Below are positions 2,094 to 47,455 of a DNA stretch of 64,000 bases, piece by piece. The stretch covers positions 186,001 through 250,000 of the forward strand of contig NZ_AP025739.1 in the NCBI RefSeq assembly GCF_003574315.2, in the 5' to 3' direction. The notes beneath the pieces were generated by a model, which did no database searches, was not told the DNA's origin, and was given only the letters and a program-made list of their open reading frames with translations. The stretch comes from Capsulimonas corticalis. GTDB taxonomy: Bacteria; Armatimonadota; Armatimonadia; Armatimonadales; Capsulimonadaceae. Position numbers and translations under genes: made by a program. Within the stretch, counting starts at the first letter, position 1. Each line of letters opens with the position of its first letter.

Positions 2094-3362
2094 ATGGCTA
2101 ACGATCGCCGCGCCGCCGGCGCGCTCGTCATCCTTCTCTGCGTGGCTGTTCCGGCGCACCAGGCAAGCGCATCCCCTCGCATTGACCCACAAGCGCTTGC
2201 GGTTCTTCGCGAAGCCGCCGAGACGGCTCGAAAGGCGCGCGGCGTGGCGGCGGATTTTGTGGATGTCTCCTGCTTCACGTCCGGCGTTCGGGAGATTCAC
2301 AAAGGATCTTTGCGATACCTCAAGCCACACTACTGGCGTATCGACGGATTGCGTACGGAGGAAGGGGCGCACCGACGTTTGCAGCATGGGGAAGTCACCG
2401 TGTCGGCGTCGGACGGCAAGAGCGATTGGATTTCCGACGGCGGTGGTCGCTACATGCAATTTTCTTCCAATCCTCCCATAAGTTCGGAAGGAAGGGAATT
2501 CCAGCAGGCGTCCGGATTTTTGGACGAAACTCAGTACGTGATCAACCGGCTCCATGCGCAGCAGCGCACGGGAACGTTCGTTTCTCTTGTTTATGCCGGT
2601 AAGAAAAACTGGGACGGCGCCTCGTTTCCCGTGATTCAGTGGACGCACCGCGAAATCGCCGGCGCGGCTCCAGACGCGGCGAATGCTTCGCACGAAGGCA
2701 AGATTTATCGGGACGAGATTTATATTGGCTCCGACAGGCTGGTTCACCGGGTCGTCACCACGACGCAGGGGCGCACGCTTTATGATTTTACAATCCGCCG
2801 CGTCAAGCTTGATCCTATGATGTCAGCGCGCGACTTTGCGTTCTCAGCGCCTCGGGGCGAAAAGCCGCAGGCGCCGCAGGAGGAAACGTCGCCTGTACTG
2901 CCGGCGGGAACAGCGGCGCCCGATTTCTTGGCGACAACCCCGGACGGGCGCGCGGTTCATCTTTCCGATTACAAAGGCAAGCCGGTCATTCTCGATTTCT
3001 GGGCGACCTGGTGCATGCCCTGCCAGTATGCTCTGCCGTATTTGCAGCAAGTTTACGACCGGGTGAAGGACCGGGGGGTGGCGTGTCTGGCGATCTGCGT
3101 TTACGACAAAAAAACGGAGTTCGCGCAGTGGCTCCAGATGCACAAAACCTATACTTTTGCGTCGGTGTATTCCCCGCCCGGCCCCGGCGGTTCGGATCCC
3201 GTGGCGAGCGCCTATCACCTGACGAGCATACCAGCGCAGCTTGTCATCGATAAAGACGGAAAGGTGTCCTCAAGCCATGTGGGATATTCCGACGGCTACC
3301 GCCTGGAAGCCGCGCTGGCGAACCTGGGCGTCGATGCGAATGCGCCGGAATCGAGGCGATGA
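2094..3362 (+). CDS. Secreted LolA-like/TlpA thioredoxin fusion, copy 2
   Basis: 422 residues from ATG 2094, preceded by CAGGAG and downstream of its own promoter; the frame extends further upstream but would contain the -10 box. It has a signal peptide ending near QASA, then the LolA-like domain ('GSLRYLKPHYWRID', 'SASDGKSDWI'), then the TlpA-like domain with WCMPC (Cys307/Cys310). Met replaces the usual Gly in the CxxC loop. It is the most divergent of the three copies: it lacks the FDFG/ERALRN segment that copies 1 and 3 share. Residue choice between the cysteines normally tunes redox potential, so this copy may have a different partner (inference). Confidence 0.84.
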   Translation: MANDRRAAGALVILLCVAVPAHQASASPRIDPQALAVLREAAETARKARGVAADFVDVSCFTSGVREIHKGSLRYLKPHYWRIDGLRTEEGAHRRLQHGEVTVSASDGKSDWISDGGGRYMQFSSNPPISSEGREFQQASGFLDETQYVINRLHAQQRTGTFVSLVYAGKKNWDGASFPVIQWTHREIAGAAPDAANASHEGKIYRDEIYIGSDRLVHRVVTTTQGRTLYDFTIRRVKLDPMMSARDFAFSAPRGEKPQAPQEETSPVLPAGTAAPDFLATTPDGRAVHLSDYKGKPVILDFWATWCMPCQYALPYLQQVYDRVKDRGVACLAICVYDKKTEFAQWLQMHKTYTFASVYSPPGPGGSDPVASAYHLTSIPAQLVIDKDGKVSSSHVGYSDGYRLEAALANLGVDANAPESRR

Positions 3363-3377
3363 CGCCGCCCGGCGCTC

Positions 3378-3410
3378 TTGACTGTTTTTTGATCCATCCC
3401 TCCCTATAAT
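3378..3410 (+). promoter_or_regulatory. Probable promoter of TlpA fusion copy 3
   Basis: TTGACT (3378-3383) and a perfect TATAAT (3405-3410). The 21-nt spacing is longer than usual, so the -10 is better supported than the -35. Confidence 0.45.
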
Positions 3411-3448
3411 GTCTGGATATCCCTATCCCGTCGATTGAGGAGCGCTTC

Positions 3449-4759
3449 ATGAACACCCGACATCTCGCCGCCGCCTGCGCGCTCGCCGCGCTTCCGTTCA
3501 CGCTCACCGCAGCCTGTCACGCCGATGCGCCAGACGCCAGCGCCGCGCCGGCGGCAGTCGATCCCAAGGCGCTGGCGTTGCTGGACGCCGTGGATGCGGC
3601 GACAAAGGGCGCGAAGGCGCTGACTGCGGATTTCACGGTCACATCGAGTTTTGAGCCGGGGAAGTCCATGATGCAGGAGGGCTGGCTGAAGTATCTCAAA
3701 CCGAACTATCTGCGCGCGGATACCTGGCAGGTCGCGAAGGATGCGGCGACGGGCAAGTGGACGCGCACCGGATCGCCTTTTGTGACGGCCTCGGACGGAA
3801 AGAAATTCTGGATCGTCGTGCAGAATGGGGAGTATCATGAGTTCCCCGCCGATCCCTCCGGCAAGGGACTTGGCGGCGGCTCCTATCCCGGCCCCAGCTT
3901 CTTTGACGCCGGCCGCTCTTTGAGCGCGCAGCTGGAGGAGCAGCAGCAAAAGCATCTGCTGATCTCGCTGGCGTACGGCGGTAAACAGACCTGGGAGGGA
4001 GCGGATTACCAGGTGATTGATTGGGTTGCAAAGCCGGCTTTCGACTTCGGTCCCGAGCAGAGCAAGAAAGCTCCGAACGGCGTCGTCCTCTACACACAGC
4101 ATCTTTATGTCGGCTCGGACAACCTGGTCCACCGGGAAGTGTACGATTACAACGTGGGCTTGACGGGCGAGCGGGCGCTGCGCAATATCGCGCTCAATCC
4201 CCTGCTGACCGCGAAGAGCTTCCACTACACGCTGCCCGCCGGCGCGCACCCGCCAAAGCCGGCGCCCGAAGCGCCGCCGGTGCTGGCGAATGGCGCCGCC
4301 GCGCCGGATTTTGTGGCGACGACGCCCGAAGGCGCGTCCGTGCTGCTGTCCAATTACCGGGGAAAAACCGTCGTGCTGGACTTCTGGGCGACCTGGTGCG
4401 GCCCCTGTCAGGCCAGCATGCCGCATCTGAACAAGGTCTACGATCAGGTCAAGGACAAGGATGTCGTGGTCCTGGCCGTGTGCGTCTGGGACGACAAGGA
4501 TTCCTACGCCAAGTGGGTAACCGAGCACAAGACGACCTACGCCTTCCCTACCGTCTTCGATCCCGCCGGCAAGGCGGGCAAGAATATCGCGGGCGCGCTT
4601 TACCGTGTGAGCGGCATCCCGACGCAGTTCGTCATCGATAAGGACGGCAAAGTGGCGGCGAGCAACGTGGGGTACATGGGGGAAAGCGATCACCGTTTGG
4701 AGGGAGAGCTGGCGAAGCTGGGCGTGGACATCGCGGTTCCGGCGAGCGCAAATAGCTAA
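3449..4759 (+). CDS. Secreted LolA-like/TlpA thioredoxin fusion, copy 3
   Basis: 436 residues with a signal peptide (about 1-26), a LolA/DUF2092-like domain ('GWLKYLKPNYLRAD', 'TASDGKKFWIV') and a C-terminal TlpA-type thioredoxin domain with WCGPC (Cys317/Cys320) and GIPTQFVIDKDGK. It is much closer to copy 1 than to copy 2: both keep the ERALRN segment and an almost identical C-terminal half. GAGGAG precedes the ATG by 6 nt. A strong intrinsic terminator follows at about 4790. Likely periplasmic or envelope redox or carrier role; no substrate can be read from the sequence. Confidence 0.86.
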   Translation: MNTRHLAAACALAALPFTLTAACHADAPDASAAPAAVDPKALALLDAVDAATKGAKALTADFTVTSSFEPGKSMMQEGWLKYLKPNYLRADTWQVAKDAATGKWTRTGSPFVTASDGKKFWIVVQNGEYHEFPADPSGKGLGGGSYPGPSFFDAGRSLSAQLEEQQQKHLLISLAYGGKQTWEGADYQVIDWVAKPAFDFGPEQSKKAPNGVVLYTQHLYVGSDNLVHREVYDYNVGLTGERALRNIALNPLLTAKSFHYTLPAGAHPPKPAPEAPPVLANGAAAPDFVATTPEGASVLLSNYRGKTVVLDFWATWCGPCQASMPHLNKVYDQVKDKDVVVLAVCVWDDKDSYAKWVTEHKTTYAFPTVFDPAGKAGKNIAGALYRVSGIPTQFVIDKDGKVAASNVGYMGESDHRLEGELAKLGVDIAVPASANS

Positions 4760-20708: not shown

Positions 20709-20797
20709 AGTCCAGAGGCTCGGCGTCGCTCGGTCAAAGGCAGGCCCTTCGGCGCTCCCTCTGAGCGCCCCGCCCCGACGCTTCGCTCGACCTCTTC

Positions 20798-20944
20798 AAA
20801 CCCACCCCCGCGCTTCGCGCGACCCCTCCCTCGGGCGGGAAGGGTTATTTCAGAGCGTGTTATCGCAGGCGGCTCTCGTACGAGGCAATCTTACAAACCC
20901 TTCCCGCCCGAGGGAGGGGTCGCGCGAAGCGCGGGGGTGGGTTT
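20798..20944. repeat. Long palindromic element E1
   Basis: Two 49-bp arms (20798-20846 and 20896-20944) are perfect reverse complements around a 49-nt loop. Each arm is C-rich and contains an inner CGCGC-TTC-GCGCG hairpin. It lies between the convergent esterase and sensor-ATPase genes. The loop is homologous, in opposite orientation, to that of E3 at 38005-38157. Confidence 0.92.
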
Positions 20945-20965
20945 GCCACGGATCAAATTTGCCGT

Positions 20966-31371: not shown

Positions 31372-31506
31372 CTCACCCCCCGGCCCCCTCTCCCAAAATT
31401 GGGAGAGGGGGAGTCAGAGGGAGTTTTTTATTTGGATCTTTGATCCAAAATCTTAACCCTCTCCCAGAATTGGGAGAGGGTGGCGCGAAGCGCCGGGTGA
31501 GGGCCG
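31372..31506. repeat. Palindromic element E2
   Basis: Two imperfect arms, each with a CCCTCTCCC-AA-TT-GGGAGAGGG hairpin and flanked by CCCTCACCC / GGGTGAGGG. The right arm also carries GGCGCTTCGCGCC. A T6 run follows the left hairpin (31424-31429), so it can terminate tatD. It lies between the convergent tatD and HTTM genes. Confidence 0.85.
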
Positions 31507-37870: not shown

Positions 37871-38187
37871 AAACGTTCTCTTCTCAAGTTAGATTGACGC
37901 GGGTTGCGTCAACAGGTCACTCGCGCGGCGGGGGCGGATCCGGAAAGAGGATTTTGATCCAAAGGTCTACCCTATCCTATCAATACAGCGTACATCTTCA
38001 GGCCGGCAAACCCACCCCGGCCCTTCGGGCCACCCCTCCCGTCGCCGGGAAGGGTTTGTAAGATTGCCTCTGACGAAAGCCGTCCGCGATAACAAGCTCT
38101 AAAATAACCCTTCCCGTCCGAGGGAGGGGGCAGCCAAAGGCCGGGGGTGGGTTTGCCAAGGCGCCCCGCAACGCCAGAGTATACGTC
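37871..38187. other. Intergenic region upstream of mutL
   Basis: 317 nt without a gene. It holds a perfect inverted repeat TTGACGC-GGGTT-GCGTCAA (37894-37912), 24 bp upstream of mutL, and the palindromic element E3. I see no other coding or RNA signal. Confidence 0.7.
38005..38157. repeat. Long palindromic element E3
   Basis: GGCAAACCC ... GGGTTTGCC bound an imperfect palindrome with arms of about 50 nt. The 50-nt loop matches the reverse complement of the E1 loop at 43 of 50 positions, so E1 and E3 are copies of one element in opposite orientation. Unlike most copies it lies between codirectional genes (hisG, mutL). Confidence 0.9.
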
Positions 38188-44088: not shown

Positions 44089-44328
44089 ATGACGGAGGAA
44101 ATCCCGACCCCCAGTGATCAAGAGCCCTCGGTGAGCGAGGAAGCCGCTGCCCCGGCCGAGCAGACGCCGCCCTTGAACCGGGAACAGCGCCGCGCTTTGG
44201 CGCGCGGCAAGAAGCCGGCCGCCGGCGCCAAGCCCGGCCTGCCCCAGGGCAGCGCGGCCGAACGCGCCACCGGACGCGGCGCCGCCCCCGCCGGCGGCGC
44301 GCTCTTCCCGCGAACGGGACATAAGTAG
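44089..44328 (+). CDS. Small disordered basic protein
   Basis: 79 residues from ATG 44089 with AAAGGAG 7 nt upstream and a TATAAT promoter. An acidic N-terminal third, a basic 'LNREQRRALARGKKPAAG' middle and a Gly/Ala/Pro-rich tail; no hydrophobic core. No family recognised. The charged layout suggests a nucleic-acid or ribosome-associated role, but that is inference. It ends next to palindromic element E4. Confidence 0.62.
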   Translation: MTEEIPTPSDQEPSVSEEAAAPAEQTPPLNREQRRALARGKKPAAGAKPGLPQGSAAERATGRGAAPAGGALFPRTGHK

Positions 44329-44329
44329 A

Positions 44330-44487
44330 GCAAACCCACCCCGGCCCTTCGGGCCACCCCTCCCACCAGGCTGGGAAGGGTAGGAAAACTAAAAACCCCG
44401 TCGCCTCAGTATAGGCGACGGGGTTTTTCTCTTTAACCCTTCCCAGCCTGGTGGGAGGGGTGGCCCGAAGGGCCGGGGTGGGTTTGC
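44330..44487. repeat. Long palindromic element E4 with nested terminator
   Basis: Arms 44330-44381 and 44436-44487 are perfect reverse complements over 52 bp. The 54-nt interior, unlike that of E1/E3, is mostly a bidirectional terminator. It separates the convergent 79-residue gene and zwf. Confidence 0.95.
44391..44428. terminator. Bidirectional intrinsic terminator
   Basis: A5-CCCCGTCGCCT-CAGTAT-AGGCGACGGGG-T5: a perfect 11-bp stem with A and T runs on either side, able to stop transcription from both directions. Confidence 0.93.
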
Positions 44488-44489
44488 CC

Positions 44490-46052
44490 CTACCGATCCA
44501 GCCACTTCCGGCCGACGTCCGCCACGAGCTTGTTCGCGGCTTCCGGTCCCCAGGTGCCCGCCGCGTAGTTGGGCAGGTCAGGCGCGGGGGTGTTTTTCCA
44601 CGCTTCGAGGATCGGGGTGATCAGGCCCCATTCGGCTTCGACTTCGTCGTCGCGCGTGAACAGCGCGGCGTCGCCGAGCATGGCGTCCATCAGCAGGCGC
44701 TCGTAGGCGTCGTGGATGCGCTGGCCGAAGCTGGTGCCGTAGGTGAAGTTCATATCGACCGGCACCGCGCGGGTCTGAGCGCCCGGCGGCTTCGCGCTCA
44801 GGCGCATGGAGATGCCTTCGTTGGGCTGGACGCGAATGGTGATTACGTTCGGCTCAACGCCCGTTGGGGAAAGCTGCTTGAGCAGGATCGGCGGGATCTC
44901 CTTGAAGACGATGTTGATCTCGGTGAGACGCTGTCCCATACGCTTGCCGGCGCGGATAAAGAACGGCACGCCCGACCAGCGCCAGTTTTCGATCTCCATC
45001 TTCAGCGCGACGAACGAGTCCGTCACGGATTCCTTGGGAACATTCGGCTCGTCCCGGTACGCCGGGACATCCTTGCCATTGATCTGTCCCGCGCCGTACT
45101 GGCCGCGCACGACGCACTCCTGGCAGTCCTTGCCGACGACCGGTTTGATCGCCCGCAGCACTTTGACCTTTTCGTCGCGGACATCGTTGGCGCCCAGCGA
45201 GTTCGGGGGCTCCATCGCGACCAGGGAAAGGATCTGCAAAGCGTGGCTCTGCACCATGTCGCGCAGCTCGCCGGCCGTATCGAAGTAACCCGCGCGCTGT
45301 TCGACGCCGACGGTTTCGGCGACCGTCACCTGAACGTTGTCGATGTACTTGCCGTTCCACAGCGGCTCGAAGAGAGCGTTTGCGAACCGGAAGACGAAGA
45401 TGTTCTGGACCGTTTCCTTGCCCAGATAGTGGTCGATGCGATAGATCTGGTCCTCGTCAAAGACCGATTTCAGCTCCGTGTTCAGCGCGCGCGCCGTCGT
45501 CAGGTCCGAGCCGAAGGGCTTTTCGACGATGATACGAATGAACGGATTGTTCGTTTCGCCGTCACGCTTCGCAAGACCCGCTTTGCCGAGCTGATCGATG
45601 ACGGTGGAGTAGGTGCTGGGCGGGGTCGCGAGATAGAACAGGCGGTTGCCGCCGGTCCCTTCCGTCTCGTCGAACTTGTCCAAACGCTCCTTGAGCCACT
45701 GGAAGCCCTGCGAGTTATCGAAGTCCGAGCGGTGGAAGACGACCCGGTGCGCGAAGCGCGGCCAGGCGTCCTGCGATTCTTTCCACAGGTCCGGAGCGAA
45801 CTCTTCCAGGGACGCCTTCAGCTCGTCGCGATAAGATTGATCGGAGTAGTCACGGCGCGCGAATCCGATGATCTTCACGTGTTCCGGCAGCAGTCCCTGC
45901 GCTTCAATGCTGAACAGCGCGGGGATGAGCTTTCGGTGCGTCAGGTCTCCCGTCGCTCCAAAGATGATGATATTGCAGGGCGGCAAGGGGCGCTCCACCA
46001 GCGGCGGCTTCTCGCCGGGTTTGCCCTGCCCGTTGTTTTCATTGATCGCCAT
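44490..46052 (-). CDS. zwf: Glucose-6-phosphate dehydrogenase
   Basis: 520 residues. NADP-binding '[19 protein letters not shown]', active site '[16 protein letters not shown]' and '[10 protein letters not shown]' are typical. First step of the oxidative pentose-phosphate pathway, producing NADPH. It is followed upstream on the same strand by two 6-phosphogluconate dehydrogenase genes, the first 31 nt away, so at least zwf and that gene form an operon. Confidence 0.97.
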
Positions 46053-47121: not shown

Positions 47122-47285
47122 TCCGTGTGATCCCTTTCGGCGAACCCAATGGGGCGTGCTTGGTCCAGCAAATCCTACCCGCACAAATGCCGAGCCTGGT
47201 ATTTTTGCCGTGTCCAGACGTTAGTTTACCCCGCGAACTATGTCCGCGGGGTTTCCTGACGGGAAATGTTTGAGGAGATTTGGAC

Positions 47286-47438
47286 GGATGGCCCTCATCC
47301 CCCAGCCCCTTCTCCCAATTCTGGGAGAAGGGGAGCCAGAGTTTTGAGTTTTAAGATCTCAAATATAAAATCCTAACTCTTATTCCGACTCCCCTCTCTC
47401 CCAGAATTGGGAGAGGGGGCTGGGGGATGAGGGCCATC
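47286..47438. repeat. Long palindromic element E5
   Basis: Near-perfect arms of about 52 nt (47286-47337 and 47388-47438) containing the nested TCTCCCAATTCTGGGAGA hairpins. It belongs to the CCCTCATCCCCCAGCCCC subtype, as E2. It lies between the two codirectional 6PGDH genes. Confidence 0.9.
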
Positions 47439-47455
47439 CGGATGAGGGCCTGCCC

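Follow-up and report, generated by a model that had tools for sequence, protein, structure and literature searches.

E4, the element that fills the gap between two convergent genes in the window (the whole 64,000-nt stretch of DNA analysed here), belongs to a dispersed family of palindromic elements. Comparison of its copies makes it likely that E4 is a terminator-carrying variant of a REPIN/MITE-like family that has a DUF559 coding partner and is spread or homogenised by cut-and-copy. The arms of the family form covarying hairpins, and in one long copy they surround a DUF559 gene. E4 shares a terminator interior with three other copies, all four lying between convergent genes, and orthologous sites in a sister species hold unlike occupants. 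The DUF559 nuclease gene of the long copy may be responsible for the spread and upkeep of the family.

Anatomy of E4 and its convergent neighbours

The initial annotation had described E4 as a 52-bp perfect palindrome built around a complete bidirectional terminator at a convergent gene pair, and this description held on each point of anatomy. The two arms are 52 nt each and 100% complementary, strictly speaking forming an inverted repeat with a 54-nt spacer, and E4 is the longest perfect inverted repeat among those listed for the window (arms at most 250 nt apart). Inside the spacer lies a second perfect inverted repeat (44391-44406 and 44413-44428), in which 16 pairs close a 6-nt loop and the 11-bp GC-rich core is preceded by A5 and followed by T5. 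The neighbours converge, with the 79-aa ORF ending at 44328 and zwf, on the opposite strand, at 44490; since only 1-2 nt separate E4 from the stop codon on either side, the element is essentially the whole intergenic space. The DNA of the 79-aa gene is conserved in a genome of the same genus (G001, see below). The arm type that E4 had been said to share with E1 and E3 is also real: a search of the window for AAACCCACCCC, with up to one mismatch permitted, returned six sites, all exact and all within these three elements. Positions are collected in Table 1.

Table 1. Features of E4, its neighbours and the related elements in the window
Feature	Position	Strand	Remarks
E4, whole arm-interior-arm element	44330..44487	.	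occupies the gap between two convergent genes
E4 left arm, 52 nt	44330..44381	+	C-rich tail AAACCCACCCC, hairpin, TCCC-ACCAGGCT-GGGAAGGGT
E4 right arm	44436..44487	-	exact reverse complement of the left arm
Possible local hairpin, E4 left arm, GGCCC-TTC-GGGCC	44343..44355	+	from sequence and family covariation
Same possible hairpin, E4 right arm	44462..44474	-	from sequence and family covariation
Two-way intrinsic-terminator-like stem	44391..44428	.	A5, 11-bp GC-rich stem, 6-nt loop, T5
79-aa gene, left convergent partner of E4	44089..44328	+	0 Pfam families
zwf, glucose-6-phosphate dehydrogenase, right convergent partner	44490..46052	-	G6PD_N and G6PD_C
E1, standard-interior family copy	20797..20945	.	
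E3, standard-interior family copy	38007..38155	.	two arms unlike

Folding was assessed against 200 dinucleotide shuffles. The E4 interior gave z scores of -7.3 and -6.7 on the two strands, and the complete element, which folds as a single long hairpin, gave -20.2; in no case was any of the 200 shuffles as good. For the arm of E4 folded alone, the best predicted structure differs from the family hairpin described below (z -1.7, with 13 of 200 shuffles as good). On both strands the interior presents a GC-rich stem and then a T-run, the hallmark of an intrinsic terminator. A consensus scan for terminators listed the minus-strand site alone, while our own scan flagged both strands. We infer that transcription terminates at 44391-44428.

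A dispersed family of two-armed elements

The arm pattern occurs 79 times in the forward and 75 times in the reverse orientation in the 7,645,051-bp single-contig genome, and the reversed pattern, used as a control, gave 0 and 0. The window and 80 genome stretches examined yielded 80 complete arm-interior-arm elements, a count that leaves out the long DUF559 copy. Of these, 76 have a standard interior of about 53 nt, with the consensus TTTGTAGGATTGCCTCTTACGAAAGCCGCCTGCGATAACACACTCTGAAATAA (derived from the 59 copies that are 53 nt long), and four have the terminator kind. The standard interior of E1 has no stable fold (z -0.1). A comparison with Rfam gave 15 matches to microRNA and sRNA families, below gathering scores.

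A perfect 5-bp local hairpin is found in 132 of the 140 arms of the 70 elements that have an exact AAACCCACCC start in both arms, and its stems take mostly four covarying forms (GGCCC, CGGCC, GGCGC and CGCGC). A conserved local hairpin with covarying stems indicates that each arm behaves like a REP unit; an element forms a long palindrome because it has two such units, inverted. The hairpins are unlike between the two arms in 27 of the 70 elements. In 19 of the 27, two unlike stems are each perfect over 5 bp; the remaining eight have unlike loops, or one stem that is shorter or interrupted.

The two arms of one element nevertheless tend to be the same. Identical arms were found in 32 of 70 elements, against a mean of 5.2 when right arms were shuffled among elements, and none of 5000 such permutation rounds reached 32. 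The tendency has limits, as the arms differ in 38 of the 70 and are identical in just 9 of the 35 elements that have a rare arm. The outer flanks form perfect 12-nt inverted repeats in 16 of 68 elements, as compared with 0.2% of mispaired controls. Direct repeats in the flanks of the same 68 elements were at the level of mispaired controls, that is, target-site duplication is absent. We read identical arms and mirrored flanks as arm-to-arm copying or symmetric palindrome growth.

Two minor features of the arms may be recorded here. Decayed extra hairpin units lie outside the arms, often as exact mirror images (for example, around 2600-3450 of locus L079). In the elements at 1658970 and 6703092, both among the 80, one arm is replaced by an unrelated arm that has nearly the same sequence in both, GTGATACAAGCTTAGCCGC.

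A second interior subtype between convergent genes

A second interior subtype had been suggested in the initial annotation, and it exists: three further copies with the E4 interior were found (3099908, 3438455 and 5550442), making up 4 of the 80 elements. The four interiors align with a mean column identity of 86%, which indicates that they are mutually related and not four local terminators. Two compensated pairs in the stem set E4 apart from the other three, an A-T for a G-C at the base of the stem and a G-C for an A-T inside it.

All four terminator copies lie between convergent genes, as compared with 23 of 74 classified standard copies (Fisher p 0.012), with neighbour orientation taken from our own codon-model gene calls. 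The convergent pairs are redoxin-like/MetG-like, DUF892/HflX-like, an unknown ORF and a nucleotidyltransferase, and the 79-aa gene and zwf. Beyond the E4 pair, Pfam backs the called neighbours of the redoxin-like/MetG-like and DUF892/HflX-like pairs, and one side only of the nucleotidyltransferase pair. Placement between divergent genes is rare in the family as a whole, being found for 2 of 78 classified copies of both interior kinds as compared with 12 of 53 neighbouring window pairs (p 0.0004); the family avoids promoters.

The annotation had further proposed that the element serves as, or carries, a termination module. E4 is predicted to carry one. As a statement about the element in general the proposal is not supported, since 76 of 80 interiors differ from that of E4. 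A simple scan detected no terminator inside the 20 standard convergent copies scanned (the scan excluded three more, which overlap a called gene), and this also counts against a family-wide terminator role. External terminators acting in the same direction were found near none of the 4 convergent elements of the terminator type and near 6 of the 20 standard ones (one of them weak), numbers too small to base an argument on.

The arm variant of E4, ACCAGGCT, occurs in only E4 and element 4017728 among 154 listed arms. Element 4017728 has a standard interior, and the other three terminator copies bear other arm variants. At the sequence level, E4 itself shows modular mixing of arms and interiors.

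A DUF559 gene inside one long family copy

A 701-bp copy at 1487643-1488343 has exact 52-nt family arms, 599 nt apart, that enclose a DUF559 gene. Neither the dispersal of the family nor this coding copy had been noticed in the initial annotation. Its protein matches PF04480 with an E value of 8.7e-35 and 119.3 bits (curated cut-off, 20.6), and DUF559 was the only family returned by the Pfam search of this protein, which thus gave no transposase partner of the kind that a MITE has. Approximately 36 nt at the right end of the long copy align with the standard interior consensus, with place and orientation kept (0 of 2000 shuffles); the left end gave no clear match, its score being reached by 165 of 2000 shuffles.

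PF04480 has five matches in the genome, three of which span most of the domain, and a profile of these three DUF559 proteins gave one PDB match, 3hrl, 'Endonuclease-Like Protein'. The two other full DUF559 genes also lie between inverted repeats, of non-E sequence (26 nt at 100% and 75 nt at 95% identity). The coordinates of these repeats are 1322-1396 and 1868-1942 in locus L101, and 1433-1458 and 1915-1940 in locus L099. No relative of the DUF559 protein was found in viral contigs.

DUF559 proteins have been described as Vsr-like, as with Caulobacter VsrA (PMC12907096), and have been placed in the EDxHD family of homing endonucleases (PMC9403480). The protein of the long copy resembles these endonucleases in its match to PF04480, and the three-protein profile does so in its match to 3hrl. 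The links drawn in the work consulted concern damage from cytosine methylation and homing endonucleases (PMC12907096, PMC9403480) and not, as here, dispersed palindromic repeats. Among the matches listed from the open-licence literature, we found no link between DUF559 and palindromic repeats. By analogy, kinship with Vsr-like and homing endonucleases is compatible with a cut-and-copy role without being proof of one.

DUF559 loci in other bacteria

The most surprising result of the analysis is how frequently DUF559 genes are bracketed by inverted repeats. DUF559 loci were taken from named genomes as the best 80 of at least 303 relatives, of which 73 had enough flank and 7 were left out. The left flank was aligned to the reverse-complemented right flank, and a score of at least 16 was counted as bracketing; control windows had the same geometry and lay elsewhere within the same loci. 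By this test, 34 of the 73 loci are bracketed as compared with 0 of 765 control windows, and 39 of the 73 have no flanking repeat at the threshold. Many of the bracketed loci are mutually related and cyanobacterial; when the proteins are clustered at 80% identity, 23 of 52 clusters are bracketed. A C-rich tail like that of E4 is present in 25 of the 34 bracketing arms (57 of 1700 random stretches), and 14 of the 34 loci have a further copy of the arm within the examined stretch. Within these best 80 of at least 303 relatives, arms of similar layout bracket DUF559 genes in several phyla, and the best named DUF559 match is an Armatimonadetes MAG.

Five DUF559 loci from a plasmid collection were compared over 400-nt flanks. 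Flanking repeats were present in Sphingomonas (score 23) and Pseudanabaena (57) and absent from the Escherichia coli ycjD locus (8) and two Azospirillum loci (12 and 11). Among eight genomes, a strict Nostoc arm pattern of 26 fixed bases found one exact copy in each of five, which are of the Nostoc type, and none in three. The pattern is weak evidence, as it missed the partner arm of a known pair, and little can be read from the three zeros, given that the L202, L175 and L221 arms do not match it as written. One copy per genome under such a pattern does not show short multi-copy derivatives in the Nostoc type.

An empty site was also sought. In E. coli, ycjD is a DUF559 gene between sapF and fabI, and the sapF-ycjD-fabI region is at least 80% covered in 3362 of 5375 matching genomes. 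It was rejected as an empty-site system for want of a flanking inverted repeat. Two strains lacking ycjD, found among the shorter matches examined, have efflux genes after sapF, so that their neighbourhood differs. No empty site was found for the Azospirillum loci examined.

Orthologous sites in a sister species

G001 is a genome of the same genus, 69% complete, whose zwf protein is 95% identical to that studied here. At its zwf site E4 is absent and a different intrinsic terminator is present, followed by an element of another repeat family, one that is also seen in the window at 47285-47440. The dapF site presents the converse arrangement, with an E element in G001 (L051/L319) and the other family in our genome (L258, about 4492450).

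G001 has at least 20 E-like elements (20 of 97 candidates scored). Six of the 20 share both flanks, and two more share one flank, with an E locus of our genome. At all eight shared or half-shared places the two species have different arm sequences and different ends. Judged by eye, the interior has the same orientation at four of the eight and the opposite orientation at four; at the six places with both flanks shared, the division is three and three. Matching flanks around changed elements indicate that sites are often common to both species while the occupant changes, and either conversion through the arms replaces elements or the same sites are hit repeatedly. A search of 20 G001 contigs found no clear orthologous site.

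The second palindromic family has copies in the window at 47285-47440 and 31381-31485, which combine CCCTCATCCCCCAGCCCC and CTTCTCCCAATTCTGGGAGAAGG in a similar arm-interior-arm layout. Its copy at 47285 is absent from the corresponding place in G001. The dapF copy in our genome appears to be a chimera, its right arm containing an E-type hairpin.

Comparison with known repeat systems

In REPIN/REP systems, the partner gene is flanked by the same repeats. These systems, whose partner is the RAYT (a Y1 HUH transposase), consist of short hairpin repeats in inverted pairs that are multi-copy, mostly extragenic and sometimes arrayed (PMC3116915, PMC3733652). The family shares this build, with inverted pairs of REP-like hairpins in 80 elements and the perfect 5-bp stem in nearly all arms scored. 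It differs in that its arms enclose the gene of a DUF559 PD-(D/E)XK-type nuclease and not that of a Y1 transposase, and in that some copies have a terminator interior. None of the five Y1_Tnp loci in the genome contains an exact E-arm motif. The GTAG or CGTC tag at the foot of the REP hairpin is absent from the arms, which commonly read AAACCCACCCC-hairpin-ACCCCTCCC, and the one place where CGTC appears in the standard arm is within its second hairpin. Just beyond the ends of E4, at distances of 1 and 2 nt, GTAG and CTAC are found, but they contain the two TAG stop codons, and G001 has the left one while lacking E4. Base composition in the flanks of 68 copies revealed no tag of the GTAG/CTAC type.

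The likeness to bacterial MITEs, of which MITEAba12 (PMC6382973) is an example, is that a short non-coding core, related to one end of a coding copy, lies between terminal inverted repeats; here the 52-nt arms are common to the short elements and the DUF559 copy. The differences are that no target-site duplication was detected, that the candidate partner is a nuclease not known to act as a transposase, and that each arm itself forms a hairpin. With bidirectional intrinsic (rho-independent) terminators E4 has in common the GC-rich stem, the A- and T-tracts and the position between convergent genes; it differs in that its terminator is embedded in a dispersed repeat and common to four loci.

Proposed mechanism and alternatives

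The mechanism that we propose starts from the build of the family, in which two inverted REP-like hairpin arms surround an exchangeable interior cassette. In most elements the cassette is the stretch of about 53 nt related to one end of the longer, DUF559-encoding copy, and in E4 and three others a predicted intrinsic two-way terminator that is expected to end transcription of both convergent neighbours. An element would be broken by the DUF559 nuclease, or by host repair at palindromes, and repair of the break would copy another element with the arms serving as homology. Because the arms are inverted repeats, a cassette could enter in either orientation or be swapped, and copying from arm to arm would keep the arms of one element alike. 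E4 would have acquired its terminator cassette in this manner and would now serve zwf and its neighbour. Several results weigh against the proposal: in this genome a single DUF559 copy has E arms, and its left end lacks a clear match to the interior; 39 of 73 DUF559 loci elsewhere, and 3 of 5 from the plasmid collection, are without a flanking repeat at the threshold; the strict pattern, a weak test, found one copy in each of five Nostoc-type genomes; target-site duplication is absent; the E4 arm alone is predicted to adopt another fold than the family hairpin; and arms are unlike in 38 of 70 elements and identical in just 9 of the 35 with a rare arm.

That E4 arose locally as nothing more than a very strong two-way terminator, its hairpin reinforced by long arms, seems to us highly improbable. 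Its anatomy is perfect for that role, it sits between two stop codons and no other terminators were found in the gaps, but the family arms occur in 80 places, 76 of them with another interior, homologous terminator interiors occur at three unrelated loci, and G001 has a different, local terminator at the zwf site. We find it rather unlikely, too, that these are non-mobile host elements comparable to the REP/BIME sequences of E. coli, kept to protect the 3' ends of mRNA or for the sake of DNA topology, and that the copies are old and homogenised by recombination. The strong preference for 3' ends (the 2 in 78 divergent placements against 12 in 53 window pairs) and the flanks shared with G001, on both sides for 6 of 20 elements and on one side for two more, would suit such a role. 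Yet purifying selection after random insertion also leaves promoter avoidance, the two species have elements of different families at the E4 and dapF sites, and interiors are inverted, by eye, at 4 of 8 shared or half-shared sites.

A third possibility concerns the mover. The elements could be orphan REPINs moved in trans by the genome's own Y1 (RAYT-type) transposase, with the DUF559 gene a passenger in one element, and a passenger is conceivable because a single DUF559 copy in this genome has E arms. The REPIN-like build from two inverted REP-like hairpins, the lack of target-site duplication and the presence of five Y1_Tnp matches, two of them bracketed by long inverted repeats of their own, speak for this explanation. 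We nonetheless consider it unlikely, as the exact E-arm motif is absent from all five Y1 loci (3.1-3.3 kb each), the arms have no GTAG or CGTC tag at the hairpin foot, and it is a DUF559 gene that the family arms bracket, as do arms of similar layout in several phyla among the best 80 of at least 303 relatives.

A broader reading, which we offer tentatively and hold as possible without giving it the better chance, is that DUF559 nucleases drive a class of mobile palindromic repeats that is widespread but has gone undescribed, and that would be the nuclease counterpart of RAYT/REPIN. They would cut at or beside the arm hairpins, repair copying would homogenise arms, flip interiors and swap cassettes, and E4 would be an exchange that gave a gene pair its terminator. 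Short G/C-rich palindromic repeats with no known mover abound in many bacterial genomes, and the DUF559 family is common and little explained. If true, the link between DUF559 and repeats would name a candidate mover and suggest a role for DUF559, both of which can be tested together. E4 itself illustrates how ordinary housekeeping genes can come to have a copy of a dispersed repeat as their likely terminator.

Two observations on REP-related loci remain. The bracketed Y1_Tnp loci (L244 and L245, at about 2822448 and 2171961) gave alignment scores of 82 and 57, with repeats unrelated to the E arms. The CGTC-tagged REP superfamily is reported to lack association with transposase genes (PMC3733652).
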